The notes beneath the pieces are model-generated. The model saw nothing but the letters and a program-made list of their open reading frames with translations, did no database searches and had not been told where the DNA came from. A stretch of DNA of 62,757 bases from a virus, in the IMG/VR virus record IMGVR_UViG_3300027996_000032, positions 1 to 62,757 of that record; one strand, given 5' to 3'. Positions within the stretch are counted from its first letter, which is position 1. Every line of letters begins with the position of its first letter. The position numbers and the translations under genes are program-made. Shown piece by piece: positions 32,619-56,023 of this stretch.

Positions 32619-35600
32619 CTACTTCGCCGCGTACGCCATCTCTGGCGGGAGTTCCCTGTGCCCCGTGCGCTCCCGCTGCGCCGCGGCGTAGTGGCCGGCG
32701 ATCCCGTGCTCCTCCAGTGACACCGGAGTCTCGTGCGCCTCGGCCAGCGTCTTCTTTCGACGGAGCCTTCGGAGCGCGCGACGGTCGAAATCGGTATCGG
32801 TGTGCCAGTTGTGGATGTCCACGTCCCCATGCTGCCCCTGGCGGAAGGCCCGCCCGCTGCGCTGGGCGTGCGCCTTTTGCGTCATCGGGAGATCGTAGTG
32901 GTGCACAGCCTTCGCGCGTTGCGCGTTCACGCCGGCCTCCATGGCGCGGGTCGCGACGATCACGTCATGCGATGGATCGCCGCCCCCCTCCGGCTGAAAG
33001 CCCCGCATCACCTTGTCTCTGGCCTTGACGTTCATGCCGCCGTGGTAGGTCGCGGATCGAACCCCGCGCTTCGAGAGCGAGTCGTGGATCATCCGCAGCT
33101 CGGCGAGCGAGTCGGTGAACACGATCGTGGGCTTCCCCTTCTGCTTCGAGCCACCGCGATCGAGGTACTCGCCGTTCTTCACGTCGTGCGCGATCACGTC
33201 AGCCATGGTCTTCAGCTTGTGGTTGATCTCCTCCGGCGCCTGGTTGATGGCTCGCCGCATGGCCATCTCGCGCATGGTCCCCACCGCCTTGGCCTTCCCT
33301 TTCGCCAGCTCTTCGTGGTCGGCCTCTGGCGTGGTGTCGAAACCCTTCGGGCTCAGCTCCTTGACCGCCTCCACATCCACCTTTCCGACGCTCTTGCCCT
33401 TCCGCACGCGCTCGTAGAGGGCATCGACACGATCCACCAGCTTCTTCTGCTCCGGATGGAGCTCCAAGGGGCCGCCCGACGCGACCTTCTTGCCGTCCTC
33501 GATCTTTGGGTTGGCCGAATCGTGGCGTTCCACGCCCTCGGGGTCGATCCTCGAGGTGAACGTGAGGTGCGACAACTCCCGGCGCAGCGCGTCAGGGTTG
33601 TGCCCGCTGCCGCCGAATGACGACATGAAGTCACGACGACCCCCGTACCTGTCGGGCGCCAGGTCGGCGGCCGTGCTCCACGCCTCCGACGGGTCATTCT
33701 TGACCGGTGTGGCGGAGCCCCGAACGTAATGGGTCGTGTTGGAGGGGTGGCTTGCCGCGGTCATGACAAGAGACAGCATGCTGGGCTTCGCGCCCTCGCG
33801 CTGCACCGTCATGTGTGCCTCGTCGTTGTACGTGAAGTGAGCCGGCACGCCATGCGCCTCCCGCGCGTCGCGGTACCAGCCCGCCCTCTCCTGGACCGTG
33901 GAGCTCCGCAGCTTCTTTCGCATCTCGTCGTGCGACACGTTCGCGTGGTCCGCCATCATGCGCAGCGCGGTGTCGCGGAACGCGGCGTGCGTGAAGACGC
34001 GCATGTGCGTGTCGCCCTTCAGGATCCCCATCCGGTCAGCGTGGCCTTTCCCCTCGCTGGTCTTCCACGAGTGTTTTCCGGGCTCCGTGTACCGCAACAT
34101 CTCGTTGCCGAACTGGCGCTGAACCGAGGTCGGCACCAGGAACAGCCCGTGTTTCGTCGCGCCTTTCCCGTGCTGGCCCGTGAACATCCCGATCGTCGTC
34201 AGCGACTTGCCGAAGCCGGTGCCGCCGGTGAGCTGCATTCGACCGCCGTTCGCGTCGAGCATCTTCGCGGCGCGTTGCTGGTCGGCGCGGTGTCCGTCCA
34301 TGTTGAGGCCCTTCACCAGGTCCACACCGCCCTGCCGGGGGTCGAACTGTTGCCCGACGTGACCCATGAGAGACTCGATCTGGCCCTCCGCGCGACGCCC
34401 AAGCGACACCCGCTGCCCGAGCGATGGTGTCGCGATCTCCTCCGCGGATCTGGGCTCCATCTTCACCTCTCCGGACGGCTTCGGGGGCCCACCAAACATG
34501 CCGCCACCACCGAACATGCCACCCTGCGCGGTAGCCCTCGCGCGGTCCTCCTCCCGGCTCTTGGTCTCCTTGGCGAGCAGGGCCCCCTCGCCACCCATGC
34601 CGCTGTACTGCTTCGTGTCGGCGTGGCGCTCCTGGACCTCCTGCATCCTCGTGCGGCGCGCCTCGCGGTACGCGGCATGCTCCTTGGGGTTCGCGGTGGC
34701 GAAGACGTGGTTCTCGCGGTTGTGCACATCCGAGACCGTCCGCCGCAGCGTCTTGCCTGTGGTCTGCCCGTGGTGGTGAGCGAAGCGTGCCGCGAAGTCG
34801 CCGCGTAGCTCGTCCTGGAGCGCGCGCTGAGCGTTCTCGAGGCCGCCGTGCATGGACACGTACAGGCCCCATGGCGTATCTGCACCGGCCGCCCGCTGCT
34901 CGAATCGAGCGTTCTTCGCCTCCCACATCTTGGGAGCCAGGTAGCTGTCCACGTGCTGGGGTAGGATGCGCGGCGCGTACTCGTGTGCTTTCGGGGAGCC
35001 GAGAGCATCGATCGCGTGCGGGTCCTCCCCTCGTCGCCTCGCCTCCGCGGATCCCATCTCGGTTCTCGCCGCCCTCACCACCTTGTCAGCACTCAGCCAT
35101 GGTGCCTTTTCGTGTGCGGCGTCGATCGCCTTCACCTGCTCGTCCGTGAGATCTGGGTGCCGCGTCGACTCCGGAGCATCACCACGAAGTCGCCGGTGGA
35201 GCTCCCGGCCCTCCGATGGGTACCGACCAGCGAGCGCCATAGCATCGCGCTTCCAGTCGCCGTATTCCTTCGACTCCGTCTGAGGCCCGAAGAACGACAT
35301 GGTTCCACCGAACTGCTTCGGCTCCTTCCCGAGCTTCTCCAGCTCCTCGTTGAAGATCCCCTTGTAACTGCGCTCGTCAGCGATGCCCTGGCGCTCGTAG
35401 AAGTGATCGATCAGGGCTTGGCGGTCCTCTGGCTTCAGCTGACTCGGCGGCGTGAACCCGACCTTCAGGAGGGGTCGCTCAGCGAGCGTGCGGAACAGCG
35501 CCTCGTGGGTCTCTGGCGAGTCGGTGTCGATGCTCTGCCGGTGTGCGGCATCAGTCTCGCCCTTCCCAGTGGCACCCAGGTGCTCACCGACAAGGCTGTC

Positions 35601-38321
35601 GAAGTGCTCCGCGAACTCGTCGGATGGCCGCACGTTCCCCTCGGCGTCGCGGATCGGGATGGCCTTCCGCATGGATGCCAGAAACGGCTTGATCTTGTCG
35701 CCTACCTGGTTCGTCACCGAGGGGGACATCAGATCGGCCTGGATGTCCTCGGGGCGCTCGCCGTCCGCCACCCGTGCCCCGACGTGGGAGCGCAGGGCCG
35801 CGTCCATGTCATCACCGGACAGATCGAGCGGCGCGAAGTGCCGAGGCGCATCGGGCAGGTCCCGGTTGAACGTGGTGCTTGCCCTCCGCTTGATCCCCTC
35901 TGGTAGCCAGCCCTTCTCGTCGCGGTCGCCACGCTTGATCGCCTCCACCTCTTTCCGGCGTTCCAGCACGTCCGCCGACTCGCGGTGCACGAGCTTCTCC
36001 CAAGAAGCTTGGGGCACCGTCACCTGCTTGCCTTCCAGGTCCACCGAGTAGTCGGAAGACGTGAGGCCCGCGGCGTGGAGCCATTGCAGCTGAGTGTTCA
36101 GGTCCGACCCCTCGCGAAGGGGCAGCGTCATCTTGTCGGGCAGGGGGGTGCGGTACGCCTGCGCCAGCGTCGCGGTAGCCTCCAGGCTGCCAAGGGCCGC
36201 CCCCACGGCCGTCTGCGCGTCGTCAAGGTCGGCATCGTAGGCGCCAAGGTGCGCCGCGGCGTCCTCGATGCTCCCCACATCTTCGACGGACCGCTGCAGG
36301 CCGGGCACCGCCGACTCCACTTGCTGCAGCGCCTTCACCGATCGGGTCTTCACCTGCTCGACGTGGTGGCTCTCCAGGGCGCCGAGCACCGTGGCGTCGT
36401 CGTGCCCGTCGGATGACATGGCCCAGCGGGTCAGGAGCGCCGCATTCCCGACACCCACAGCATCCACCGTGAGCCTGTCCAGATACCTCTGCTTCGAGAT
36501 CCCGAGCGAGACATCGGCGAGCGCCGAGTAGTGCCCATCGGCCAGGGCGGTCGCGTGAGCCCCACGCTTCTCGTCTGCGACCCCCAGGAGCTGCCGCGTG
36601 AGCTGCGTCCTCACCGCATCCTCGATGTCTTGGCTGACCTTCTCGGGTGGTGGCCCCACCTTCAACTCGACCGCGCGGCGTGAGGCATCATAGTCGCCCG
36701 ATTCCGCGGCCTTCACCATGGCCTTGAACTCCTTCTGTGCGGCCCGTAGGGCGTCTTTCGACTCCATCAGGTCGCGGAACTCGTGCAGCTCCGCCTCGCG
36801 CAGGGGGACCCGAGACGAGTCGGTCAGGCCCAATTTCTTGGCGTACTCCGAGGCGTCCTTGGTGATCCCCGCCATCAGTTCGCCGTAGGCTAGAGCCGCC
36901 ATCGCTTTGTTGCCCTCGCCTTCCGCCTCCAACCCGGCGAACTTGTCGGCCTGCGCTCGCTTCACCTCTGCGCGCCTCACCTGGCGCCCCGCCTCCCGCT
37001 TCAGGGCATCGGCGTGGTCCTCCGGGTCTCCTTCGAGACCGAGCCGCTCCATGGCTTCCGCCACCGCGGCCTTCCTGCCCTCGTCGAGATCCCCACCACC
37101 GGCGGCGTCAGACAGCGCCGCGGCGGTGTCCATGGCCACCAGGGATTGGCGCTCGGCCTCGTGTGACGCGAGATCGATAGACTCGGGGCGGTCACGGCCC
37201 CCAGCAGCCTCCAAGTCCTTCGCCAGCTGGTCATGGTCGACCAGCTCCAACTGCTTGGCGGCGTGCTCTGTTGCTGCGGCACCCACCTCGCTGGCTGCCG
37301 ATGGTGTCCGGCTCCGACGCGCGGCACGCTCCCCCGCTCGCTCGGTCTCCTCCTGGGCCTGCAGCTCGAGCTCGGCACGCGCCATGTGCACGACATCGCC
37401 GTGAACCGGGTCTTCACCCTCGACGGAATCACGCACGATCTCCGCGTCCACGGCTTCCATGGCCTTCCCAGCCACGATCTTCTCGTGGTGCTCGCGCAGC
37501 CGCTTGTTGGCCTGTGACAGCTGCCGGCGGTGGTGGCGAGACCGGATGATGTTGCGAGCCCCATCGCTCGGCACCTTCGCGAGGTCGGATTCCGGCAGGT
37601 CGTCCTCGACGCCCCCGAGCTTCTCGCGCACCGTCTCAATGAACTTGCGCTCGGCGTCGACCTTCGCGTCTTTCGCCTCCTTGACGGTCTTGTCTTCCTG
37701 CTCGTTCTCCTCGTCGGATTGCCCCTCGCGGCGCTCTTTGGTCGTGGCGTCTTTCTTCTTCTTCCGCTCCGCCGACTTCTTCGCCCACTTCTTCCGGTTC
37801 TCTGGCGTGTCCTTGGCGACCCCTTTGAGGCGGGCGTGGGTCATCTTGCCGCCAGCCCCACCGATGATCCGGTGCGTGCCGTCCGGGTTCGGGCGGATCA
37901 GGACAGGAACCCCCTTCTCGCCGTCGCCGTTCGGGTGCACCGTGATCCAGCGCTCACCCTCCTTCAGAGCCCGGCCCTTCCGCAGCAGGCGCCCACCAGC
38001 CTGGACGAGCCGCACCACAGGCAGCCGCAGCTTGGACACCTTCGCGGATTCCGAGACGCGATACCGGCCGTGCTGCACCTTGTGCATCTTGCCGTCGGCA
38101 TCCACGACCTGGATGCCGTGCTCGCCGCGCGTGTGCTCGACACCGACGCGATCGTCGGTGTCGCCATCACCGCGCCAGTGCACTCGGGGCGAGTCGTGCC
38201 ATGCGAGCGAGGTGTGCCGCTGCTCCCACGGCACCCGCACCCGGTACGCCTGCCCGGAACGTGTGCATGTGAGACTCACGATCGCGTGGTCTGAACTCCG
38301 CTGACAACGCTCGAACCGCAT
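32619..38321 (-). CDS. Giant polyvalent protein with SF2 helicase domain, about 1900 aa
   Basis: I chose the ATG at 38321 (MRFERCQRSSDHAI) with GGAGG upstream; a GTG at 38333 is possible. Regions: an N-terminal GEHGIQVVDADGKMHKVQHG motif; a GERWITVHPNGDGEKG segment as in polyvalent proteins; a long charged coiled-coil middle (about 160-900); and a C-terminal superfamily-2 helicase. The helicase has Walker A GGTGFGKSLTT near residue 1370, a Walker B variant YNDEAH near 1500, GSATP near 1535, and the motif V/VI stretch ATRAMEAGVN...QRSGRAFRQGQ near 1790-1825. Phage polyvalent proteins of this size (for example P1 DarB) travel in the capsid and act on the injected DNA. Injection is an inference here. 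Confidence 0.8.
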   Translation of the reverse strand: MRFERCQRSSDHAIVSLTCTRSGQAYRVRVPWEQRHTSLAWHDSPRVHWRGDGDTDDRVGVEHTRGEHGIQVVDADGKMHKVQHGRYRVSESAKVSKLRLPVVRLVQAGGRLLRKGRALKEGERWITVHPNGDGEKGVPVLIRPNPDGTHRIIGGAGGKMTHARLKGVAKDTPENRKKWAKKSAERKKKKDATTKERREGQSDEENEQEDKTVKEAKDAKVDAERKFIETVREKLGGVEDDLPESDLAKVPSDGARNIIRSRHHRRQLSQANKRLREHHEKIVAGKAMEAVDAEIVRDSVEGEDPVHGDVVHMARAELELQAQEETERAGERAARRSRTPSAASEVGAAATEHAAKQLELVDHDQLAKDLEAAGGRDRPESIDLASHEAERQSLVAMDTAAALSDAAGGGDLDEGRKAAVAEAMERLGLEGDPEDHADALKREAGRQVRRAEVKRAQADKFAGLEAEGEGNKAMAALAYGELMAGITKDASEYAKKLGLTDSSRVPLREAELHEFRDLMESKDALRAAQKEFKAMVKAAESGDYDASRRAVELKVGPPPEKVSQDIEDAVRTQLTRQLLGVADEKRGAHATALADGHYSALADVSLGISKQRYLDRLTVDAVGVGNAALLTRWAMSSDGHDDATVLGALESHHVEQVKTRSVKALQQVESAVPGLQRSVEDVGSIEDAAAHLGAYDADLDDAQTAVGAALGSLEATATLAQAYRTPLPDKMTLPLREGSDLNTQLQWLHAAGLTSSDYSVDLEGKQVTVPQASWEKLVHRESADVLERRKEVEAIKRGDRDEKGWLPEGIKRRASTTFNRDLPDAPRHFAPLDLSGDDMDAALRSHVGARVADGERPEDIQADLMSPSVTNQVGDKIKPFLASMRKAIPIRDAEGNVRPSDEFAEHFDSLVGEHLGATGKGETDAAHRQSIDTDSPETHEALFRTLAERPLLKVGFTPPSQLKPEDRQALIDHFYERQGIADERSYKGIFNEELEKLGKEPKQFGGTMSFFGPQTESKEYGDWKRDAMALAGRYPSEGRELHRRLRGDAPESTRHPDLTDEQVKAIDAAHEKAPWLSADKVVRAARTEMGSAEARRRGEDPHAIDALGSPKAHEYAPRILPQHVDSYLAPKMWEAKNARFEQRAAGADTPWGLYVSMHGGLENAQRALQDELRGDFAARFAHHHGQTTGKTLRRTVSDVHNRENHVFATANPKEHAAYREARRTRMQEVQERHADTKQYSGMGGEGALLAKETKSREEDRARATAQGGMFGGGGMFGGPPKPSGEVKMEPRSAEEIATPSLGQRVSLGRRAEGQIESLMGHVGQQFDPRQGGVDLVKGLNMDGHRADQQRAAKMLDANGGRMQLTGGTGFGKSLTTIGMFTGQHGKGATKHGLFLVPTSVQRQFGNEMLRYTEPGKHSWKTSEGKGHADRMGILKGDTHMRVFTHAAFRDTALRMMADHANVSHDEMRKKLRSSTVQERAGWYRDAREAHGVPAHFTYNDEAHMTVQREGAKPSMLSLVMTAASHPSNTTHYVRGSATPVKNDPSEAWSTAADLAPDRYGGRRDFMSSFGGSGHNPDALRRELSHLTFTSRIDPEGVERHDSANPKIEDGKKVASGGPLELHPEQKKLVDRVDALYERVRKGKSVGKVDVEAVKELSPKGFDTTPEADHEELAKGKAKAVGTMREMAMRRAINQAPEEINHKLKTMADVIAHDVKNGEYLDRGGSKQKGKPTIVFTDSLAELRMIHDSLSKRGVRSATYHGGMNVKARDKVMRGFQPEGGGDPSHDVIVATRAMEAGVNAQRAKAVHHYDLPMTQKAHAQRSGRAFRQGQHGDVDIHNWHTDTDFDRRALRRLRRKKTLAEAHETPVSLEEHGIAGHYAAAQRERTGHRELPPEMAYAAK

Positions 38322-38326
38322 GGCGC

Positions 38327-38340
38327 CTCCCACGTGGGAG
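38327..38340. repeat. Perfect 14-bp palindrome over the helicase ribosome site
   Basis: CTCCCACGTGGGAG at 38327-38340 is fully self-complementary and covers the GTG/GGGAGG region just upstream of the helicase ATG. It could be an operator for a dimeric regulator. As RNA it could only form a tight hairpin. Confidence 0.5.
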
Positions 38341-40443: not shown

Positions 40444-43400
40444 CTACGATGCCCGGCGTTTCACAACGAGGCGAGGACGGCGGCGGCGGGCTGCTGCGCG
40501 TAGCGCCTTGGCCAGCACATCGGTGCGCTGCATGGCCTTCACGAGATCCCCAACGGCCTCGTGGATGTGCGCGCGCTCGGCATCCTGCGGGTAGGGCTGC
40601 TCGGTGCGGGTCGGGTCCTTCATCCGGGTACCGTAGACAAGGTAGGTGCTCTGCCTCTTCTGCTTGTGGAGCGTGTCTTCCACGTATGACTCGAAGGCGC
40701 GAGCGAACATCTCGTGCGGCGTCGCCCAGTACCCCTTTCCGAGTGCTTCGGCGTGCTGTAGGTACGTGGTCTTGTTCGCGGTAGGTAGTGCCTTGATCTT
40801 GGCGTTGAACGTCTTCACTTCTTCGTTGTATGCGTCCGACGCGGCGCTCCTTTCCTTCCCCTTCAGGCGCGCAGCCTTCGACCTGACCAACCGCAGGCGT
40901 TGTCGCTCCGCGTTCAGGTCTGTATCCGCGGCTGCTCGCTCCTTCCGAAGCTCGGCCTGGCGCTCTGGTGTCGGGGTCGTGATCCGATGCATCACCTCGC
41001 GGAACGCTCTCGACACATCTGGGTGCAGCTTGTCCGCTGACGACCTGGCGGACACGAACGGCGCGCTTGCCTTCTGTCCTGGCCGCCCTGGCGTCATGGC
41101 GGAAGGATCATCCACGAGCTGGTGGTCGAAGAAGTGCGCCCATTCGTGGGCGAGACTGCCCGCACCTTTGGTGTGGGTGAGGTTGATCACCTGCGTGTCG
41201 GGCTCGTAGTGAGCCGCCGCGGCCCCCCCTTGCTTGCCGCCACGAGCGCCGATCGTGATGGCCAACACACCACCGTGAGATATCTGCCTCGGGTGCATCC
41301 CGAGGACATCCGCCAGGTCGGTCAGGGCCTCGTGAGAGCGTGCAAGGTGCTCGTCACGGCTGGCCTGGTCCACCCAATCGCCCCAGCGGACAGCGCGCAG
41401 CCCAAACAGATCGGTGAGCTTTTCGCCGGACGGGTTCGACACGTCGACCTTTGGCCCCCCAACACGACGGTTCTCGGTGGTGGCTCGGGTCCATTTGGTG
41501 CCCTTGCGCCGCGTCTTCTTCTTCGAGTCGAGCATGGACGACCAATCGTCCTCTTTCTCGATCTTCCTTGCATGGTAGCGGTCCTTTTCCCAGAACGCAG
41601 AGTTCGCGGTCCGCTCGGTTCTGGCTCGGTGGTCGGCACCGTTGATCACGCTGGCCAGGCGTCGGGCTGACCGGCGTCCACGCCGGTCAAAGCCAGCCTC
41701 ACCGCTGAGCGCGTCCATGTAGCGATACCAGACGTTCTCGGACTTCGGGATCGGCTTGGTGAGACGGTAGCCGCCGCCGCCCCGCACCACCTCCGACGAG
41801 TACCCGGCCGCCTTCAGCATCCCGAACGAGATCTGTTCGCGACGGTCGAGGGCGTCGATCTTCACGTTGAGTCGCTTCACCTCGTCCCAGTCCGGCACGG
41901 CCTTTGTTCTTTCAGCCTTGAGGGCCTGGAGCTGCTTCAGCTCCGCTCGTGTGTTCAGGTTGATCTGCGTGTAGCCGCCACCGCTCGGAGCACCCTTGTG
42001 CTCCTTCACCTCGGCCCACAGCTCTTGTGCCGAGAGGGTCTTTTCCTCGACCATGTGGCCGCTCGCCATGAGCTTCCAGTCCCGAACGAATGAGATCACC
42101 TTCTCCATGGTGTCGCACGCCGCGAGTTCCTTCTGCAGCCAGGTGGCGCCGGCCACGTAGTCGCGGCGATAGTCGGCGCCATCCTTCGGACCCACAGCCA
42201 CAGCCGCCAGGAGCTTCTTCTTGAGCCATGCGGCACCAGGTGTCGCTCCCGAATCCCTCTCCTCCTCGGCGCTGAACTTCTCGAACACGTTCTTCTTGAG
42301 TGCGTGCTTTCTTGCTGTCTTGGCGCCACGCGATTCGAGCTCGCCAATGTTCGCCTCGTTGATGCGCGTTTTGGCCCTCCACTCGTCTTTTCGGTCGCCT
42401 GGCACGTAGACGCCCACATCCACGTGGTCGCCGGCCTTCGCGGGTGTCCGCGACCGCTTCGGCGACTTCTTGGGGGCTGGCGCCAGTTGACCGTCCGGCG
42501 TCACAGCTGGCGCCAAAGCGGCGGAGCCTGTGGCCGGCTTCGGCTTCTTCGCCTCCGCTGCCTTCAGCTCAAGCTCGTAGCGCATCCCAACCATGGCGGG
42601 GCCGACCGACATCTTCGGGCGCCTGCCTCTCTTGTCCGGCATGTAGCCCGGGAGATACTCACCATCGCCGCCCGACAGGGCCGCCCACAACCCGGACGCC
42701 CTGCGAAGGGCCTCGCGGCCATCGTCTGCGACCTGGCCCGTGCTACCCATGCTCGCGGCATGGATGAGCAGCAAGCGCTCGATCTCACTGAGGTGCTCCT
42801 CCTCGGACTTTGGTCCCTCGGAAGTTTCCGCCGCACCCTCGGAAGTTTCCGCCGCACTTTCGGGGTCGACCTCGCCCCGCTTCTTCTTCGCCTTGTCGCG
42901 AAACTCGGCCGCGGCATCCTTGTCGCCGCGCTTCTCGGCCATGTCACCGTGCAGATCGAGGTAGGCCGCCGCCGTCTTCTTCCGCCCGATGTCGTCCTCG
43001 GACAGCTTCGACCCCTGCGCCTCGGGTGCCGGCTCTGGCGTAGGTTCGGGTGCCGGCTCTGGTGCTGGTGTGGGCTCCACAGCCGCCGGAGTCACGGCCG
43101 GCTGCTCGGGCTCGGGCTCCACCACCTGGTGGCCCTTGGCGGTGCGCTCCCCCTCCGTCACCTGAGCCACACCCGTCTTGGTACGACGCAGATGGCGCTT
43201 CACTTTGTAGCGCTGCCCCGCACCTTCGCGTCGCTTGTGCTTCTCGGCTCGCTTCGCGGCGCGCCGGTTGAGCTCCGTTTGCACCACACCGTGGTCGGCG
43301 TGGTTGGGCCCCACCTTCTCCTGGTGGGCTCGCAGCTCTTCGGCGCGCATGCGGAAGACGGAGCGACCAGTCAGCGGTGGCTGTGGCGGCGGCTTCTCGG

Positions 43401-43569
43401 GCTGCAGTGTCGTCGCTGGCTTCTCTGGCGCCCTGGTCGGCGGCGCCTCCTTCTTCTTCGGCTTCCGGCGAGCCTTCGCCTTCTTCTTCTGTGCGGGTGT
43501 CGGGGCACCGAACATGCTCAACTGGGCTTTGAGCAGCTGCAGCCTGGCCGCGACGACGTAACGGCGCAT
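40444..43569 (-). CDS. Polyvalent protein with zincin metallopeptidase domain, 1041 aa
   Basis: Begins MRRYVVAARLQLLKAQLSMF, then Pro/Lys-rich linkers, an FRMRAEELRAHQEKVG block, then YKVKRHLRRTKTGV (about residue 122). The C-terminal third has an FGLRAVRWGDWVD block (polyvalent LPD1-like), RGGKQGGAAAAHYEP, and the zincin site GAGSLAHEWAHFFDH near residue 810 (HExxH), followed by WATPHEMFARAFESYVE near residue 950, a probable third-ligand region. Such peptidase modules occur in phage polyvalent proteins thought to enter the cell with DNA, perhaps to remove packaging or host proteins. Substrate unknown. It probably shares an operon with the methyltransferase and topoisomerase genes upstream. 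Confidence 0.75.
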   Translation of the reverse strand: MRRYVVAARLQLLKAQLSMFGAPTPAQKKKAKARRKPKKKEAPPTRAPEKPATTLQPEKPPPQPPLTGRSVFRMRAEELRAHQEKVGPNHADHGVVQTELNRRAAKRAEKHKRREGAGQRYKVKRHLRRTKTGVAQVTEGERTAKGHQVVEPEPEQPAVTPAAVEPTPAPEPAPEPTPEPAPEAQGSKLSEDDIGRKKTAAAYLDLHGDMAEKRGDKDAAAEFRDKAKKKRGEVDPESAAETSEGAAETSEGPKSEEEHLSEIERLLLIHAASMGSTGQVADDGREALRRASGLWAALSGGDGEYLPGYMPDKRGRRPKMSVGPAMVGMRYELELKAAEAKKPKPATGSAALAPAVTPDGQLAPAPKKSPKRSRTPAKAGDHVDVGVYVPGDRKDEWRAKTRINEANIGELESRGAKTARKHALKKNVFEKFSAEEERDSGATPGAAWLKKKLLAAVAVGPKDGADYRRDYVAGATWLQKELAACDTMEKVISFVRDWKLMASGHMVEEKTLSAQELWAEVKEHKGAPSGGGYTQINLNTRAELKQLQALKAERTKAVPDWDEVKRLNVKIDALDRREQISFGMLKAAGYSSEVVRGGGGYRLTKPIPKSENVWYRYMDALSGEAGFDRRGRRSARRLASVINGADHRARTERTANSAFWEKDRYHARKIEKEDDWSSMLDSKKKTRRKGTKWTRATTENRRVGGPKVDVSNPSGEKLTDLFGLRAVRWGDWVDQASRDEHLARSHEALTDLADVLGMHPRQISHGGVLAITIGARGGKQGGAAAAHYEPDTQVINLTHTKGAGSLAHEWAHFFDHQLVDDPSAMTPGRPGQKASAPFVSARSSADKLHPDVSRAFREVMHRITTPTPERQAELRKERAAADTDLNAERQRLRLVRSKAARLKGKERSAASDAYNEEVKTFNAKIKALPTANKTTYLQHAEALGKGYWATPHEMFARAFESYVEDTLHKQKRQSTYLVYGTRMKDPTRTEQPYPQDAERAHIHEAVGDLVKAMQRTDVLAKALRAAARRRRPRLVVKRRAS

Positions 43570-43622
43570 CTCTAGCCCCCTATTCGATACCGGACGGATA
43601 GCGCACGCCGCGGCGCGACGCT

Positions 43623-45653
43623 CTATGCCGCTCGCATGTTCTCACGGCACCGACGAACAACGGGCCTTGCTTTCCACGCCTTGGACAACGGCAGCCCATC
43701 CGGCTTGTCGAGCACGATCCGAATCGCCCGCACGCCGGTGCCGGACCTCCGCCACGCCTTGGGGTCGATCATGCGGTCGCTCTCTCCACGATGCTCGGAC
43801 ACAAAGCGCTGAAACGCCTGGTGAGCCTTTGAGCTGTTGTGCATCGCACCAGCGCCCACGATGGCCACCAGCCGCCCGCCTGGCTTCAGGTTGGTGTGGA
43901 ACGCCTGGAGTACGTGGGCCATGTCCTGACCCTTCTCGAAGGGCGGGTTCATCACCACACGATCGAACCGCCGCGACACCCCCAGCCCGTCCGCCTGCAC
44001 GTTCTGGTAGCCCTTCTCACCCAGTACCTTCCGGAGGGTCGGCGAGATCTCCGCCACGTGGATCTCGGCGTGGGCTGGCAGCATGTCGGCAATGCCACCA
44101 GTGCCGGCCGACGGCTCCAGCACGGACATCCCGGGCTGGATGTCCGCTGACTCCACCATCAGCGCCGCCTCGGGGTAGGGCGTCGGGAAGTAGCCGGCGA
44201 TCATCTTGTGGGCGGGATCCTTCCACCGCTTCGCCTCGAGCTCCTCGGCGTAGGCCATGCGGTCGTCGGCGTTGTCGGTGCGCGAGCGGTCCGGAGCCGG
44301 CCACCGCTCCACCTTCACCCGCTTGCCTGGCTCGGTCCGCTCCAGGAAGGAGCGCGTTCGCTCGACCACGCCATCGTAGTCGCTCGCTGTCTTCCATCCG
44401 ATCTCGTGCTTCGCGGTCCACGTCTTCGCGGACGCCCACCCGGGATCGCGCTTGGTGATCTTCTTGAAGGCCAGCTCAGCGGCGCGCAGCTTCGCGGCGT
44501 CGGCATGGCTCGGCATTCGGATGTGGTCGGCACCAGAGCTGCCTCGGATGGCGTACTTGGAGCGCATGCGTCCGATCAGGCGATTGTATGCGCCGATCGC
44601 CTTCTCCACCTTCTTCTCGTCGAGCCCCCGCCGCTTGTCGCTGTATGAGGTGTCGGCTGTCCGCAGGTAGGTGGTGGTGTCACGGTGCCCCATCGACACC
44701 CGCTCGCGCCTCTCCGTGGCTCGGTCCTGTGCCGCGACGGCGTTCATGGCCGCGGACTTCGCCTCAGGGCTACTCACCACCCGCTCCTCGAAGCGCGTGG
44801 GGCGATACCCCTGATCGATAGCCTCGGCGAACTGCTGCAGCCGCTGGCCCCACAGCACCTTGGCGCCGGCAGACGCCCGACGGTGCGCGCCCTCGCTCGC
44901 TCGCTTGTGCGTGTTCTCGGTGCCGTAGAATGTCGCGGATTCGGTGTTCCGCTCCACCAGGGCGGCGCCCCGCTTCCGGATCTTCGCCGCGAGCTTCGTG
45001 GCCTCCGCATCACCAAGCCGCTGCTCGTGTAGCGGCTCCTGGGTTTCCCTGGCGTGGTGCTCCTGGGCCTTCCGTACCGCCTTCTTGCGCGCCTGGGCTT
45101 CCGTCTTCGCCCCACCGTAGTGCTCGCCGTGCACCCCCTTCGGGGTCCGCATCGTGTCGCGGTGCACCATCGTTGCGTAGGCGTCCGGCAGGCCCGCGCG
45201 GCGCGTCGCCGACAACGCAGCCCGAGCAGACTTCGCCTGAGCGCCGGTCTGGTCGTTGCGGCCAGCCCTGGACATCTTGCGCTTCGCCACGGCATCCGAG
45301 ATGTCTGGCCCAGATGGCGCGCGCACCACCGCCCTCTGCCCGAGCTTCTTCGCCTTCTTCTCGGAACGTCGGCGCGTGCGACGCTCGATCTCCGCCTGCA
45401 GAACGTTGTGGTCGGGGTGGTCTTCCCCCACCTTGCGCTGGTGCGCCACCATGGCGGCACGCCCCATGCGGAACGCGTCCGAAGAGGTCAGCGTGGCCGC
45501 GGTCTTCCGGGTCGAGTGATGCTCTGGCACCGACACCACACCCGCCTTCGTCCGTCGCAGGTGCGCCTTGACCTTGACCTTCTGTGTGGGGGCGCCAAAT
45601 AGGCTCATCTGCGACTTGAGCATCGCGACGAGACCACGCCACTCCCCCATCAT
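43623..45653 (-). CDS. Polyvalent protein with N6-adenine methyltransferase domain, 676 aa
   Basis: ATG at 45653 overlaps the previous stop (ATGATG). N-terminus: LKSQMSLFGAPTQK, then VKVKAHLRRTKAGVVSVPEH and an FRMGRAAMVAHQRKVG block. The middle is basic and helical. The C-terminal domain is an adenine methyltransferase: GYFPTPYPEAA, motif I VLEPSAGTGGIAD near residue 510, catalytic VMNPPFEKGQD near residue 567. If it is injected it could methylate incoming DNA before host restriction acts, as proposed for other phage polyvalent methylases. It is related in motif layout to the methyltransferase at 2445-3125 but much larger. Confidence 0.8.
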   Translation of the reverse strand: MMGEWRGLVAMLKSQMSLFGAPTQKVKVKAHLRRTKAGVVSVPEHHSTRKTAATLTSSDAFRMGRAAMVAHQRKVGEDHPDHNVLQAEIERRTRRRSEKKAKKLGQRAVVRAPSGPDISDAVAKRKMSRAGRNDQTGAQAKSARAALSATRRAGLPDAYATMVHRDTMRTPKGVHGEHYGGAKTEAQARKKAVRKAQEHHARETQEPLHEQRLGDAEATKLAAKIRKRGAALVERNTESATFYGTENTHKRASEGAHRRASAGAKVLWGQRLQQFAEAIDQGYRPTRFEERVVSSPEAKSAAMNAVAAQDRATERRERVSMGHRDTTTYLRTADTSYSDKRRGLDEKKVEKAIGAYNRLIGRMRSKYAIRGSSGADHIRMPSHADAAKLRAAELAFKKITKRDPGWASAKTWTAKHEIGWKTASDYDGVVERTRSFLERTEPGKRVKVERWPAPDRSRTDNADDRMAYAEELEAKRWKDPAHKMIAGYFPTPYPEAALMVESADIQPGMSVLEPSAGTGGIADMLPAHAEIHVAEISPTLRKVLGEKGYQNVQADGLGVSRRFDRVVMNPPFEKGQDMAHVLQAFHTNLKPGGRLVAIVGAGAMHNSSKAHQAFQRFVSEHRGESDRMIDPKAWRRSGTGVRAIRIVLDKPDGLPLSKAWKARPVVRRCRENMRAA

Positions 45654-47737
45654 TGGAGGCCACGCGTGCGACGGATTCGCTCCATGACGCTCATCAGAGA
45701 GCGTTCGCTCTTCGAGCGCTCCCCGTAGGGCGGCACCACCTCGGGACCATCACCCTTCGCGAGCTTGCGGTACTCCTCGCTTCGGGAGTCCTCGCCGTCT
45801 TTGCGCGTGAACTCCTCGACAATGATCGGATCTATGTACTTGTCAAGAGCGGTCGTCACCGTCAGCTCCCATTCTTTGTTGGGTGGATGCTCGGCCTTCG
45901 GCAGGACCTTGTGCGCAGTCCTCCCGAGTTCCGCCTGATACCGCTTCCGGTCCGCGGTCCCATGGAAGCCCGCCACGTCGGCACCGAAGAGGGCGCCGCC
46001 GTGCTTCTCAACCAGCATTCTATCAGCCTTCTCGTCCGTTTTCACGAAGTGAGAGCGGCTCTTGCCGACCTTGTGCCCGAGCGCTTCCGCAGCCACTGTC
46101 GCGGCCGCTGTGACCCGATCCCCAACCTTCTGCGGGGCACCAGCCTTCGCGAGAGCATCCATCTCGGCAACGAAGATCCGGTTCGCGTGGAAGGTCCGGA
46201 AGTCCTTGATCGTCCCCCCCGTGTGCGAACGCACGTACGTGTTGAGACGGCTGGCGCTCCCCTCGAAGACGCGGGCATCGGGTGGGGGCCCGAGCAGCGG
46301 GGCGATGACCTTGGCGAGCGCAGCATCCTCCACGCTCTTCACGTGTGGCACTGACGCCTTCCCAACGTACGTCAGGATGACCCGATCACCATCGACGCTC
46401 ACCTGTCCTCGCGTGAGGGTCGTCACACCCCTTACATCGAGCTTCGCAGACTTCTCGTTGCCGGCACGGATCAGGGTGCTGTCCACGAGCACAGCCATCG
46501 CCGCAAGATGCGAGCCCCTGGCGAGGTCGGCGATGAACGTCTGGCGCGCACTGTCCAGCGACAGCCCAAACGCGTACATCTTCGCGAACTTCTTCGCGGC
46601 CTGGGCCTTGAGAAAGTCCTCGTGGTAGCCGTAGGTTTTGCGGCTGGTGGTGGGCGACACCCAGCGCAGGCTCCAGTTGTCGGAGGCTCCGCCGCGGGTC
46701 GCGGCGACGCCGACCGGTGGGTACTTGTCCAGGCCGGGCATGTCCGCCCGTAGCTTCGCGGCTGCAGCTTTGGCGTCGGCAATAGGTTGATTCGGCGCGA
46801 CCTTCCGTGTGGCTTGGTGTTGGGGCACCGACACCACGCCCGTCTTCGTGCGGCGAAGGTGGCGCTTCACCGTGACCTTCTGCTCGCCGAACAGCCCGGC
46901 CTGCGCCTTCCGCAGCTCCTTGGGGAGTGCAGCCCACACCCGGTCCGGCTTGTCGAGCCGCTTCGAGCGCGACGACCGCTTGCGCAGGTACGCGGCGAGC
47001 TCGGCGACAGGCCATGCTGTGAGGCCACCATCGAAGCCTGGTTTCGTGTACTGCTTCAGATACGCTCGTCTCGCCGCCGCCGCGGTCCGGTAGCCCAGCA
47101 TGACCTTGTCTTCGTCGAAGACCTGGGTGCCCGGAACCTTCTGGTGCACGACGTAGGCGGTAGGTGCTGATCCATCCTCCCCGACGTAGACATCCACTGG
47201 ATCACCATCGACACCGAGAGTCCGACAGAACTCGCCGTAGTGCGCATGCATCTTGATGATCCATTTCTTCCCGTCTGGATCAAACCCCGTGCGCGTCGAA
47301 CCCTTGCGGTTCTCGACCTTGATCTCGAGCCCCTGGAAGTCGATCACCCCCACGAAGGGGTACTCGCGGCGGTTCGGTTTCGGTGGTGGGCCCACCACCA
47401 CCGCCGATTCAGCGAGCGCCCGCAGCCGCTTTGCCTCCGCGGTGGGTCCGCTGCCCTTCGTCAGCTTGGTGCGACGCAGGCGACGCGCGACGTAGCGCTG
47501 CGAAGGCCGCACGCCCTTCTCCATTTTGCGGAACAGCCCCTCATACGGGACGCCGCCGGTCTTGAATGTGCGCACCAGTTCTGCCGTCTGCGCCCTGGCT
47601 TTCCGGAGACTCGTCACGAGCATGTGGTAGGGCAGCGGGAGCCCTGTACCCTCGATGGTGAGGACACCGACCCGACGCGGCCCACGCCGCCCCCATGCGA
47701 AGGTGAGACCACCGGCTGTCCATGTCGTCGCGACCAT
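45650..47737 (-). CDS. Polyvalent protein: inorganic-pyrophosphatase-like plus topoisomerase IB domains, 695 aa
   Basis: ATG at 47737 with GGAGG upstream. Residues about 125-250 form an inorganic-pyrophosphatase-like module (DFQGLEIKVENRKGSTRTGF; GVDGDPVDVYVGEDGSAP; FDEDKVMLGY) known from polyvalent proteins. The KVTVKRHLRRTKTGVVSVP signature follows near residue 300. The C-terminal half is a topoisomerase IB: VLVDSTLIRAGNEKSAK, GVTTLTRGQVSVDGD, TIKDFRTFHANRIF, and the likely catalytic Tyr in TTALDKYIDPIIVEEF near residue 633. It lies first in a four-gene polyvalent unit with a -10-like TAGAAT upstream. It may relax or resolve supercoils in newly delivered DNA. Confidence 0.75.
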   Translation of the reverse strand: MVATTWTAGGLTFAWGRRGPRRVGVLTIEGTGLPLPYHMLVTSLRKARAQTAELVRTFKTGGVPYEGLFRKMEKGVRPSQRYVARRLRRTKLTKGSGPTAEAKRLRALAESAVVVGPPPKPNRREYPFVGVIDFQGLEIKVENRKGSTRTGFDPDGKKWIIKMHAHYGEFCRTLGVDGDPVDVYVGEDGSAPTAYVVHQKVPGTQVFDEDKVMLGYRTAAAARRAYLKQYTKPGFDGGLTAWPVAELAAYLRKRSSRSKRLDKPDRVWAALPKELRKAQAGLFGEQKVTVKRHLRRTKTGVVSVPQHQATRKVAPNQPIADAKAAAAKLRADMPGLDKYPPVGVAATRGGASDNWSLRWVSPTTSRKTYGYHEDFLKAQAAKKFAKMYAFGLSLDSARQTFIADLARGSHLAAMAVLVDSTLIRAGNEKSAKLDVRGVTTLTRGQVSVDGDRVILTYVGKASVPHVKSVEDAALAKVIAPLLGPPPDARVFEGSASRLNTYVRSHTGGTIKDFRTFHANRIFVAEMDALAKAGAPQKVGDRVTAAATVAAEALGHKVGKSRSHFVKTDEKADRMLVEKHGGALFGADVAGFHGTADRKRYQAELGRTAHKVLPKAEHPPNKEWELTVTTALDKYIDPIIVEEFTRKDGEDSRSEEYRKLAKGDGPEVVPPYGERSKSERSLMSVMERIRRTRGLQ

Positions 47738-47900: not shown

Positions 47901-47975
47901 ACCCACGTAGTTCAGTTGGCAGAACACCCGGTGTAATGAACCGGGAGGTCGAGGGTTCGATCCCCTCCGCGGGTA
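47901..47975 (+). tRNA. tRNA-like gene with nine-base anticodon loop (candidate anticodon AAT)
   Basis: A clear cloverleaf: acceptor ACCCACG/CGCGGGT (one mismatch), D-arm GTTC/GAAC, anticodon stem CCCGG/CCGGG, T-arm GAGGG-TTCGATC-CCCTC, discriminator A, no encoded CCA. The anticodon loop is TGTAATGAA, nine bases instead of seven. A T-A pair at the base of the loop would leave a seven-base loop GTAATGA with anticodon AAT (Ile-type) preceded by U33. All other segments have standard lengths, so the extra two bases are confined to this loop. Confidence 0.65.
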
Positions 47976-47978
47976 TTG

Positions 47979-48051
47979 GGGCGAGTAGCTCAGCGGTAGA
48001 GCGTCGGGCCTTCGGGTCCGGAGGTGGCTGGGTCAGCACCAGCCTCGCCCA
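47979..48051 (+). tRNA. tRNA-like gene with nine-base anticodon loop and atypical T-loop
   Basis: Three bases after the previous gene. Acceptor GGGCGAG/CTCGCCC, D-arm GCTC/GAGC, T-arm GCTGG/CCAGC with an unusual T-loop GTCAGCA. The anticodon arm is TCGGG/CCGGA (one mismatch) with a nine-base loop CCTTCGGGT; the central triplet would be TCG after a U. The same arm can fold instead as a 7-bp stem (one bulge, one G-U pair) closed by a C(UUCG)G tetraloop, so it may not be a decoding tRNA. No encoded CCA. Confidence 0.5.
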
Positions 48052-48072
48052 TACCCTTTCCAGAGGTGAGCG

Positions 48073-48369
48073 ATGAAGCTCTATCTGATCGTGAAGACCG
48101 CCCTGGGGGCAGGTCTTCGGTGTGCGCAGGCCATCCACGCCTTCCGCGCCTTCGTTGGCGAGTACCCGCACATTGAGACGTTCTGGCACCTCGAGCACAA
48201 CAACATCGTGGTGCTGCGCCACGAGGATCCCGAGTCGCTCGCCGCGTTGCTCCGGATGCATGGCCTCCGCTTATCCCTCTTCCGGGAACCCGACCTCGAC
48301 AACGAAGTCACGGCGCTGTGCGTCGAGCCCGCCGGCGCCCGCTACCTGTCGACACTTCCCCTCGCGTGA
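48073..48369 (+). CDS. Pth2-like peptidyl-tRNA hydrolase
   Basis: 98 aa; ATG at 48073 with AGAGGTGA upstream. It looks like the Pth2 family: an N-terminal strand MKLYLIVKTALGAG followed by LRCAQAIHAFRAF, a central NNIVVLRHEDPESLAALLRM, and LFREPDLDNEVTALCVEP with a C-terminal LSTLPLA. It is slightly shorter than cellular Pth2 (about 115 aa). Pth2 releases peptides from stalled or dropped-off peptidyl-tRNA. Its place between tRNA genes on the same strand supports a tRNA-related role. Confidence 0.6.
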   Translation: MKLYLIVKTALGAGLRCAQAIHAFRAFVGEYPHIETFWHLEHNNIVVLRHEDPESLAALLRMHGLRLSLFREPDLDNEVTALCVEPAGARYLSTLPLA

Positions 48370-48397
48370 CGACCACAAGGCTATCTTCCCCATGGTG

Positions 48398-48472
48398 GGG
48401 CCTGTAGCTCAGTGGTAGAGCACTCGTCTGATAAGTGAAAGGTCGGCCGTTCGAACCGGCCCAGGCCCACCA
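48398..48472 (+). tRNA. tRNA-Ile (GAT), CCA encoded
   Basis: Full cloverleaf: acceptor GGGCCTG/CAGGCCC, D-arm GCTC/GAGC, anticodon loop CTGATAA (anticodon GAT), T-arm GGCCG-TTCGAAC-CGGCC, discriminator A and an encoded CCA (48470-48472). The anticodon stem CTCGT/GTGAA is weak (two G-U pairs and one mismatch), unusual for a functional tRNA. Confidence 0.85.
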
Positions 48473-51545: not shown

Positions 51546-52700
51546 CTACCGCAGCCGGCCACCGTCCGCCTTCACTCTTTCCGCGAGACTTCGAGCGCCA
51601 CGCTTGATCCGCTCGATGTACAGGATCGCCGCCCCTTCTGTGCAATTCGGGTGAACGGGCCCAATGACCGGCCCCCACTGTGCCGCGGGGAGACGGAAGT
51701 TTGCGCCCGCGCGCTCCCTCGCTTCCAGGGTGGACACCCTGTAGAGGTGCGGATCCGTGTTCGGGCCCCAAATCCGCTTGCAATGCTTGCATGCGGTACG
51801 AGCCACCAGCTTGTACACCCTTGGGTCCTTCCCGAGACCCAACTGGATGGCTTGCTCCTTCAGCCGGACCCAGGCGCCCTGAGCGTGGGCGTTCACCAAC
51901 TCGGTGCGCGCAACCCGGGTCATGTTGTTGACCAGGGCTGTGCCCTTCGCGGCCTCCTTGAGTTCCCGCCCCAGGGCTGCCACAGAGAGGCGACCCCGGT
52001 ATCCGGCCTCGATGGTGCTCCGCATGGCGGCGAGTTCGTCACCAGACAGCGCGCGGTCCGCCTCGGCCACCACCCGCCACGCCTCACCCGTCCACTCGTG
52101 AGCGGGGCGCCGCATGTAGATCGCGGCGCGGCGTCGGATGTACCGCACCGCCGCCTCGTCCTTTGGCGTCCACGGTCCCGCCACCCCATCCTTCACCAGT
52201 CGCGCGAGCGTCTTCGTCGACTTCGGCCGCTCTGGTGGCGACGCGAGCGTCTCAAGCTGGCGCCCGATGCGGTAGGAGACCTCAATCCATGAGGTGTCGG
52301 ACAACTCCGGGGAGATCAGCCCCGCGGTTTCCAGCCTCCTACGCTGGTGCTCGGCACCCGCGGGACGAGCGAACCGGATCAGCATGGCAAGGGAATGATC
52401 CTCAAGGAGCGCCATCAGGACCCGCTCGCGCGCCTCCGTCAGCGGGAACAACTGCCCCCGGCCGTGCAGGTCGGTCACCTGGGCAATGAGCTTGTCTCCC
52501 CAGCGCGCCCAGTCCTTCCGAGCCAGGCGGATCAGCTGGAACAGCTCCGGCAGCCGGGGATCGTCACCCTCGCCGTCGTCGTGGACGTGAGCCTTGAGCA
52601 TCGAGGTCAGCCCAAGGTGGGCCGCCAGGCCGTGCAGGAGCGCCGGGTAGTCGGACCGCTCCACACCATCCAGGCGCAGGCCCACGTCGAGAGAGCTCAT
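51546..52700 (-). CDS. MuF-like head morphogenesis protein
   Basis: 384 aa; ATG at 52700 overlapping the previous stop. The C-terminal third is the MuF/SPP1 gp7 type: TRVARTELVNAHAQGAWV, then TACKHCKRIWG and IGPVHPNCTEG, with Cys and His that probably bind zinc. These minor head proteins sit near the portal and assist assembly or DNA ejection. The gene follows the portal with two genes between (endolysin and a small zinc protein). Confidence 0.75.
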   Translation of the reverse strand: MSSLDVGLRLDGVERSDYPALLHGLAAHLGLTSMLKAHVHDDGEGDDPRLPELFQLIRLARKDWARWGDKLIAQVTDLHGRGQLFPLTEARERVLMALLEDHSLAMLIRFARPAGAEHQRRRLETAGLISPELSDTSWIEVSYRIGRQLETLASPPERPKSTKTLARLVKDGVAGPWTPKDEAAVRYIRRRAAIYMRRPAHEWTGEAWRVVAEADRALSGDELAAMRSTIEAGYRGRLSVAALGRELKEAAKGTALVNNMTRVARTELVNAHAQGAWVRLKEQAIQLGLGKDPRVYKLVARTACKHCKRIWGPNTDPHLYRVSTLEARERAGANFRLPAAQWGPVIGPVHPNCTEGAAILYIERIKRGARSLAERVKADGGRLR

Positions 52701-53980: not shown

Positions 53981-56023
53981 TCACCCCTCCTCGTGGACGC
54001 GCACCACGGTCACCCGAGCCGCCTTCTGCATCGGTTGGCCTGGCTGCCCAGGCATGCCCGGTGGGGGTCCACCAGGAGCCCCAGGCGGGCCACCAGGCTG
54101 GGGCTGCGGGGGTTGGCCGGGTGGTTGCTCACCGAAGGGACCGGGAGGCGCACCTGGACCACCGAAGCCGTCGCCGTCCTCCTCCTGGCCGTCATCCATC
54201 GCCTGTTGCTGCAGCATGCCGATTGCGGTCTGGTTCAGAATGTTGTTGTACGGGTTTGCTCGGTACTTCTTGAGCATCTCCAGCTTCTTCTCGGTCTTCT
54301 TCTTCTTCTTGTCCTTCTTCTTGTCCTCAGGCGACGCCTCGGGCTCCTGCCCCTGCCCCTGGGGATCCTCCTGCCCCTCCTGGTCGTCGGGCTCCTCCTG
54401 GTCGTCGTCGGCGTTCTGGGGGAACCCCTCCCCCTCGCCCTTCTCCATCGCCTGGGGTGGCCCTTCCTCGTCGTCGTCGTCGTCGTCGCTCATCATGTCG
54501 CGACGCTCCAGTTCCTCAAGGGCCCGAAGGTCGGCGGGCTCGATCCAGAACCCCAAGGGGGTCAATCCCTCCAGCAGGCGCACCTCGTTGGGTGTGCGGC
54601 GCGACCTGGTCTCGATCTCCGCGACCTCCGCATCCTCGCGGCCGTTCACGTCGCCGTACTCCCACACCAGGCGCAGATCTGGATGGATCCGCGCCAGCAT
54701 GGGATCGAAGATCGAGTCGGTCAGGTGGCCCACATCAGCCTGTAGGCCCTCCGCCTTGGCCAGCGAGATCTCCATCTCCCGGTTCGGAGCGTTCAGCGTG
54801 GGACCGGCGCCACCGCTCCAGGGCTTCGCGTTGATGACGCTGGGATCCATCCTGTAGTGCGAGCACATGAGCGACACGATCAGGGAAAAGTAACCCTCGA
54901 ACCCCATCTCGGTGACGGGGGGCTTGAGGTCGATCTTCGTGATCGTGCCGTCCTGTGGGAGCGGCATGATCGGCGGCTGGTGAGCGCGTCGGACACCCTG
55001 CGACGCCTGGCGCAGCAGGTCCACGAAGGCGTCGAGATCCTGATCGTGGACGTTGCCGGTGATCCCGAGGATGAAATCGGACATCATGCCGCGCGTGAAG
55101 AGTGAGCTGTTGTACGTCCAGGTGTTGAGCCCGGCAAGCAGCGTTTCCGCGCTGTATTCCACATGGCTCGGCTGGTACGCGGCGTGTCGCACGTCCGTGG
55201 TCGTGTAGCGCTGCCCCATGATCAGGCGGCCGGGACGGAAGACCCCCTCCATCACGCCCTCACGCACCAGGACATACTCGGCGGTGCGGATGTCGTGACC
55301 CACATCAGCCGCGATCATCTCCAGGCACTCCTCGTCGGTGATGCCCGCATAGCCTTCGTCGAACCCAGGATGATCCGCGATCCATCGTTCGAGGTAGAAG
55401 AGAGTGGGCCACACCAGCGCCCCGTCCACGGGGCGCCAGCCCACGACGTAGTGCGGATCGTAGTCGCTATACAGCAGCTCCACACACGGCCGGTTGATGG
55501 TGAGAAACTCCTCTTCGAGCTGCACAAGGGCCGCTCGGAACGTCGTGCAATACCGTGCGGACGGCTTCGCGATCTGGCGAGCGCCGGTCGCGATCAGGCG
55601 CTCGAACCCCTCCGGCGGCGTGGCGTCCGCCTCCTCGTGGTCCTTGTGCACCACCCGCCAGCCCACCGAGCCTTTCTTGCCGCGGTAGGGACGACACAGC
55701 CTCGCGACCTGGTGCTGCCGCGCGGCGTGGATGGCGCTCGTGATCACGCTCTCGCGACGGATGCGGCGGAGCACGTCCAGGGGGAGCTCGCTCTGGCCAG
55801 TCGACTTGTCGATCCCCATGCCGCCGCCGTCTCGGTGCACGTACCGGGCGGTCGAGGGCATGCGCGGCTTCGTGGCCTCCCGAATGGAGCGATCCCGCAT
55901 GGTCCGGATCACGTCAGGCGGCACGTAGACGCCACCCTCGACGCTCTGGCGCAACCCCGCACCGAGCAACGTTTGCACGGGGCTCTGCTTCAGCATGGGC
56001 ACCTGGCCCGCTCTACCTGCCAT
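53981..56023 (-). CDS. Portal protein
   Basis: 680 aa; it begins MAGRAGQVPMLKQSPVQTLL and has the long mixed fold of phage portals (VCIATTI-like core not diagnostic; NRPCVELLYSDYDPHYVVGW, SLIVSLMCSHYRMDPSVINA, then GGAGPTLNAPNREMEISLAK). The last 180 residues are low-complexity: poly-acidic (MSDDDDDDEEG), acidic-Gln, Lys-rich, then Pro/Gly/Gln-rich. Portals form the 12-mer ring through which DNA passes. Order terminase-portal-MuF supports it. The long disordered tail is unusual. Confidence 0.75.
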   Translation of the reverse strand: MAGRAGQVPMLKQSPVQTLLGAGLRQSVEGGVYVPPDVIRTMRDRSIREATKPRMPSTARYVHRDGGGMGIDKSTGQSELPLDVLRRIRRESVITSAIHAARQHQVARLCRPYRGKKGSVGWRVVHKDHEEADATPPEGFERLIATGARQIAKPSARYCTTFRAALVQLEEEFLTINRPCVELLYSDYDPHYVVGWRPVDGALVWPTLFYLERWIADHPGFDEGYAGITDEECLEMIAADVGHDIRTAEYVLVREGVMEGVFRPGRLIMGQRYTTTDVRHAAYQPSHVEYSAETLLAGLNTWTYNSSLFTRGMMSDFILGITGNVHDQDLDAFVDLLRQASQGVRRAHQPPIMPLPQDGTITKIDLKPPVTEMGFEGYFSLIVSLMCSHYRMDPSVINAKPWSGGAGPTLNAPNREMEISLAKAEGLQADVGHLTDSIFDPMLARIHPDLRLVWEYGDVNGREDAEVAEIETRSRRTPNEVRLLEGLTPLGFWIEPADLRALEELERRDMMSDDDDDDEEGPPQAMEKGEGEGFPQNADDDQEEPDDQEGQEDPQGQGQEPEASPEDKKKDKKKKKTEKKLEMLKKYRANPYNNILNQTAIGMLQQQAMDDGQEEDGDGFGGPGAPPGPFGEQPPGQPPQPQPGGPPGAPGGPPPGMPGQPGQPMQKAARVTVVRVHEEG

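Follow-up and report, generated by a model that had tools for sequence, protein, structure and literature searches.

Why should three adjacent genes of one phage, whose enzyme domains are unrelated, carry almost the same short basic block? The question arises in a 62,757-base virus record of IMG/VR (IMGVR_UViG_3300027996_000032; the window, meaning the whole stretch analysed). It comes from an uncultured phage of contractile-tail type, as indicated by PHROG matches to a major head protein, portal, large terminase and baseplate. The block, VK[RA]HLRRTK[TA]GV, is common to three proteins, P1, P2 and P3, whose genes all lie on the minus strand between the portal and capsid genes. We propose that it is probably part of a composite head-cargo module, consisting of a processing site and a basic beta module that would be kept on the cargo.

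A block shared by unrelated enzymes

The genes and their copies of the block are as follows (aa, amino acids; the tag is the region bearing the block).

40444-43569, minus strand: P1, 1041 aa; N-terminal tag region, zincin (AHEWAHFFDH, containing HEWAH) and LPD1
43171-43200, minus strand: P1 copy KRHLRRTKTG, aa 124-133, in frame in the long open reading frame (ORF)
43623-45653, minus strand: P2, 676 aa; N-terminal tag region and methyltransferase
45540-45569, minus strand: P2 copy KAHLRRTKAG, aa 29-38, in frame; modelled as a small beta module
45650-47737, minus strand: P3, 695 aa; pyrophosphatase (InPase), tag and topoisomerase IB (TopoIB), in that order
46838-46867, minus strand: P3 copy KRHLRRTKTG, aa 291-300, in frame, 39 aa after InPase
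47465-47476, minus strand: RRTK of a partial extra copy in P3, YVARRLRRTKLTKGSG, at about aa 82, from reading the sequence
43198-43536 (P1, aa 12-124) and 45321-45623 (P2, aa 11-111), minus strand: homologous N-terminal region, by pairwise alignment (E 2e-16)

P3 joins InPase to TopoIB and P1 joins LPD1 to a zincin; such disparate enzyme domains in a phage late or head gene context are the mark of polyvalent proteins. The homology of P1 and P2 reaches beyond the block over about 110 aligned N-terminal residues, which in P2 include FRM..AHQ.KVG..H.DH..LQ.E..RR, and P2 and P3 share 56% over 57 aa (pairwise, E 8e-12). The tag is N-terminal in P2 and many relatives, and internal in P3 and in polyvalent proteins with several copies.

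The likeness is not due to chance, since a hidden Markov model (HMM) built from other phages only, without any window sequence, puts exactly P1, P2 and P3 first among 1081 window frames (11.6, 9.0 and 7.0 bits); the next real frame scored 3.1 bits and the best reversed control 4.8 bits. The preliminary description of this locus had proposed that three unrelated enzymes share the block, and both the reading frames and this independent ranking bear it out. It had also suggested a search across phages. Relatives were recruited by a degenerate DNA-pattern scan of IMG/VR together with InPase-based recruitment, and in the recruited loci the motif takes the form VKxHxRRTKxGKxVxVxEHxDSR. Among InPase-bearing viral contigs, 7 of 50 carry it, in 2-9 copies each and within polyvalent proteins. 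The ORFs concerned encode InPase, TopoIB, SNF2, ParB, SAM lyase, ART, RadC, LPD1, PARP-like and HD domains. In five records, one of them the window, a copy is found 12-39 aa past the end of InPase. Motif ORFs come after portal and minor-head genes in contigs L019 and L044 (PHROG match); in L050 and L051 similar minor-head ORFs precede them, as judged by eye.

The motif could still have belonged to a known catalytic domain, an outcome that had been named as a possible refutation. None of the 37 tabulated copies lies inside a Pfam domain, though Pfam spans 26% of these ORFs, and nine of the 37 lie within 50 residues of the frame start. No family in the Pfam and PDB family search matches the motif. 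When IMG/VR was searched with single proteins, neither P3 nor the 89-aa tag region of P2 returned any relatives; the DNA-pattern scan did find some. The InPase, methyltransferase and zincin relatives first fetched from Rb1, Vibrio FGH, Epa33, Tunturi_5, the LR745208 uncultured phage and Shewanella Y11 held no convincing copy.

Several classes of match were rejected. Many DNA-pattern matches turned out to be the short frame VKCHTRRTKGG and were discarded; this is the end of a conserved frame of 21-28 codons found in many viral contigs at 39-47% GC (L013, L014, L016 and other pattern matches). Matches of the L023 type (VKTHTRRTKIGVSIVKAHTR) belong to a different ORF of 194 aa and were not counted as polyvalent copies. 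A stricter pattern run on a cellular genome collection gave one match, in a frame judged spurious.

In Bacteroides phage BS162P1 (L047) the motif opens two small proteins (1827-2591 and 7430-8479), which are encoded about 5 kb away from a topoisomerase IB gene that stands alone. Similar proteins adjoin polyvalent genes in L015 (1237-2586), L050 (15227-16525), L164 (5712-6959) and L159 (13883-14854). Of this latter group one matches a sigma-factor PHROG, one weakly matches Sigma70_r4, and three begin with motif-like VRxHxRxGKPV variants; judged by these matches, they may possibly be packaged sigma factors. A separate observation concerns the TopoIB domain of P3. Its residue 564 (46046-46048; SHFV) is Phe, whereas the expected catalytic Tyr is present in four related phage enzymes (KDYI, SKYI, TNYI, KSYI); the domain may be unable to cleave DNA.

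Candidate processing sites in tagged proteins and head genes

The most telling element of the module is one that the preliminary description did not list: a short stretch of the form hxK[A/S], where h is L, I, M, F or V, upstream of the block. It falls within 12 residues upstream in 30 of 34 copies from outside the window, as compared with 5.7% of random 12-mers from the same ORFs. The corresponding predicted maturation-protease sites in the window, by sequence pattern, are:

43525-43536, minus strand: P1 LLKA
45612-45623, minus strand: P2 MLKS
46904-46915, minus strand: P3 LRKA, before the internal tag

The same pattern is dense in the head-maturation protease and the scaffold. In contig G029 the protease (PHROG 1028) continues into a long acidic region, and this fusion holds 15 hxK[A/S] where 1.8 would be expected; of 120 patterns tried, none is more strongly enriched there. 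Cultured relatives were located through the capsid protein, and the gene after the protease was taken as the scaffold. PHB04 has 5 sites in the protease (0.8 expected) and 7 in the scaffold (0.75 expected), and Dolphis 6 (0.9) and 6 (0.66); protease and scaffold carry 6 and 6 in ST4, 6 and 7 in Touem01, and 6 and 6 in the Yersinia phage fHe-Yen8-01, with about 0.7 expected. Within the first 40 aa, 10 of the 12 head-block proteins of PHB04 have the pattern, against 4 among its 28 other proteins. In three further phages the counts are 19/21 head proteins versus 9/78 others, in a head set picked by the analyst, so that its P value calls for caution. The window counterparts are:

30612-31607, minus strand: head-maturation protease, from alignment to annotated proteases (~20% identity) and gene order; 4 hxK[A/S], 0.8 expected
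29945-30622, minus strand: scaffold-like acidic protein; 3 hxK[A/S], 0.6 expected
28342-29865, minus strand: major capsid protein (PHROG 752)
29815-29826, minus strand: LEKA (LEK↓AVHSGN, the arrow marking the predicted cut) near the capsid-protein N-terminus, homologous to LQKALQASNYQTD of PHB04
51546-52700, minus strand: MuF-like minor head protein with MLKA at aa 34, assigned by eye and gene order, with no family match
53981-56023, minus strand: portal protein, with MQKA near its C-terminus

An alignment places one hxK[A/S] at the homologous spot near the N-terminus of the capsid protein in all seven phages, the window included. The C-terminal tail of the protease resembles the capsid-protein N-arm past the predicted site: in PHB04, LSKALEAGYATD..QSLD compares with LQKALQASNYQTD..QSLD, and in the window GAHVPEDLEG (30612-31607) compares with AAVVPEDLEIE (28342-29865). 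The observation extends to L166-L171.

Tagged N-termini of the cultured phages fit the same arrangement. The PHB04 methyltransferase polyvalent protein begins MIILLTKAQLALFDTPVHVGAHVRKDGTVVKPHIR, with a predicted cut MIILLTK↓AQLALFDTPVHVGAHVRKDGTVVKPHIR; the PHB04 HD protein begins VIVFLKAQVAGYTRQDGTVVSPYYR (VIVFLK↓AQVAGYTRQDGTVVSPYYR), and the ST4 NUDIX protein begins MDLMKAHVKGYSRKDGTYVPPHERK (MDLMK↓AHVKGYSRKDGTYVPPHERK). In fHe-Yen8-01, gp131 begins MLKAQIKGYMRRDGVYVKPHD (MLKAQIKGYMRRDGVYVKPH) and is annotated as particle-associated, as is gp129, an ART polyvalent protein; a literature search found no paper on this phage. Separately, a solved phage portal (gp19, PDB 9b41_L) bears an InPase-like domain matching P3 (E 2e-12), and InPase is therefore a virion part in at least one phage.

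Three further features of the window stand apart from the tagged genes. Three predicted tRNA genes (plus strand, 47901-48472), one with an undetermined anticodon, lie just upstream of P3. A methyltransferase ORF at the opposite end (2382-3125, plus strand) matches PHROG DNA methyltransferase families. The window terminase finds a 100% match over 344 residues in a 6.3-kb IMG/VR contig, L011 (IMGVR_UViG_3300028045_001443).

A proposed head-cargo module and its alternatives

The best reading of hxK↓[A/S], by analogy, is that of a maturation-protease site in the role of the [L/I]xE↓ of phage T4. Lysine before the cut would not be unprecedented if HK97 is cleaved at Lys103↓Ser104. The proposed module would then have three parts: a short stretch ending in hxK↓[A/S] (LLK↓A, MLK↓S and LRK↓A in P1, P2 and P3, respectively), at which the head-maturation protease would cut; in the window lineage, a QxxLFG element; and a basic beta module of about 25 residues, VKxHxRRTKxGxVxxV, which would be left as the N-terminal portion of every unit once matured. 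In the late phase of infection these proteins would be recruited to the prohead core, and the protease would then act on the hxK↓[A/S] sites of the cargo as well as those of scaffold, portal and capsid protein. The trimmed enzymes would remain with the packaged DNA and be ejected together with it into the bacterium. Where one polyvalent protein holds several copies, each would indicate a border for cutting a polyprotein into units. What we see directly is the shared module with its distribution among phages, the absence of its copies from Pfam domains, its association with hxK[A/S], and the enrichment of that site in protease and scaffold, together with one conserved site in the capsid protein.

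Cleavage, loading, ejection and DNA binding are steps that we infer, as is the choice of the module part that acts in loading. More tentatively, the polyvalent proteins of this phage group could be head-borne polyproteins that the maturation protease cuts within the prohead wherever an hxK↓[A/S] border recurs, with each ejected unit starting with the same basic beta module as a common in-capsid tag for unrelated enzymes. A tag for prohead loading had been suggested before. This suggestion is plausible and gains a candidate mechanism, because the hxK↓[A/S] site and the module fit it and a relative's protein is annotated as particle-associated. The broader claim of a common role apart from the catalytic domains is well supported: other phages bear the block in unrelated proteins too, at positions outside Pfam domains, within the head/polyvalent gene block and beside predicted maturation-protease sites, and a relative's protein with the equivalent N-terminus carries the particle-associated label.

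Several points weigh against this interpretation, which is drawn from sequence. The hxK[A/S] pattern is short and was noticed in the same data before testing. In the window it lies at least 14 residues from the motif, and about 100 in P1; its whole-protein enrichment is not significant in window P1, P2 and SNF2, and no upstream site was found for the L047 copies or the L049 SNF2 copy. The window protease ORF matches no Pfam or PHROG family. In fHe-Yen8-01 the particle-associated label, which comes from the annotation, is also attached to TerL and small methyltransferases. Finally, the motif was not seen in DarB of phage P1, whose N-terminal packaging signal is proven.

It is also conceivable, if unlikely, that the module serves mainly to bind DNA, as a beta ribbon keeping cargo attached to DNA that is packaged or entering the cell, and takes no part in targeting or processing. 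The module is strongly basic, and the AlphaFold model of 25 aligned copies shows four short strands (mean predicted local distance difference test score, pLDDT, 90-96 over residues 21-40). HU/IHF recur among the structural matches in both libraries searched, but none reaches significance (E of 1.7 for the best PDB match and 0.09 for the best viral one), so that DNA binding is a lead only. Such a ribbon leaves the upstream hxK[A/S] unexplained, and could hold alongside the head-cargo module.

The QxxLFG element invites another explanation, which we consider improbable: that it is a sliding-clamp (DnaN) binding motif taking injected enzymes to replication forks, the basic block being accessory. 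Its occurrences are:

43507-43524, minus strand: P1 QLSMFG (aa 16)
45594-45611, minus strand: P2 QMSLFG (aa 15)
46886-46903, minus strand: P3 QAGLFG (aa 279)
34509-34526, minus strand: QGGMFG in an SNF2-type helicase (32619-38333), the fourth QxxLFG protein

Across the 14,989 aa encoded by window genes QxxLF is found four times, only in these polyvalent proteins, and the PHB04 methyltransferase has it too (QLALF). QLSMF, QMSLF, QAGLF and QLALF resemble QL[S/D]LF, the clamp-binding consensus. The clades with the clearest motif copies, however, have no QxxLF before the motif, and the clamp cannot account for the shared block. Since it is absent there, the LFG element is a separate and narrower feature. 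The preliminary description placed the block near an LFG or MFG element, which applies to P2 and P3; in P1 the block lies about 100 aa downstream of MFG.

We also hold it improbable that hxK[A/S] is cut by the polyvalent proteins' own zincin peptidase instead of the head-maturation protease. Self-processing by their own metallopeptidases is proposed for polyvalent proteins (PMC5512222), and window P1 has both HEWAH and LPD1. Against this, hxK[A/S] reaches its highest density in the maturation protease and scaffold and appears again in the capsid protein, as expected of a head protease. Least probable is a mobile inter-domain linker spread by recombination with no specific function: copies do lie between domains and P1-P3 reflect local duplication, but the residues and the upstream site are conserved across phages with divergent proteins, and the block also stands at the extreme N-termini of single-domain proteins.

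Relation to known systems

If the head-cargo module is real, head-packaged, injected proteins could be read from phage genomes by sequence, the cut positions of large polyvalent proteins could be predicted, and a recognisable shared packaging signal would exist, where none is generalisable in phage P1. The proposal is testable in cultured Pseudomonas putida phages, e.g. Dolphis.

T4 offers one close parallel. Its gp21 cuts after [L/I]xE, and its internal proteins are targeted by propeptides of 10-19 residues (PMC9026906). In both cases a short N-terminal segment ends in a hydrophobic residue, any residue and a charged residue before a small one, on proteins that are packaged in the head and ejected, as predicted here. 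Unlike in T4, the predicted P1-position residue (before the cut) is Lys, not Glu, a conserved beta module follows, and polyvalent proteins hold internal copies. In phage P1, 30 N-terminal residues of DarB suffice to package a reporter (PMC9024508), again an N-terminal signal on a large polyvalent protein loaded into the head. For the Dar proteins, however, a shared sequence was not found (PMC9024508), and DarB is without the motif. SPN3US gp245 cuts after AxE, with Ser preferred next (PMC10052503). This protease and phiKZ gp175 (A-x-E↓, [S/A]-x-E↓) resemble the present case in that a single short consensus serves for capsid, portal and ejected proteins alike, and in their repeated propeptide sites; they differ in having Glu at the P1 position and in belonging to much larger phages. 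With the polyvalent proteins of Iyer et al. 2017 (PMC5512222), the window and its relatives share the repertoire of InPase, LPD1, helicase/methylase, ParB and ART and a predicted injection; a term search of that paper returned neither a shared packaging tag nor processing of cargo by the prohead protease.

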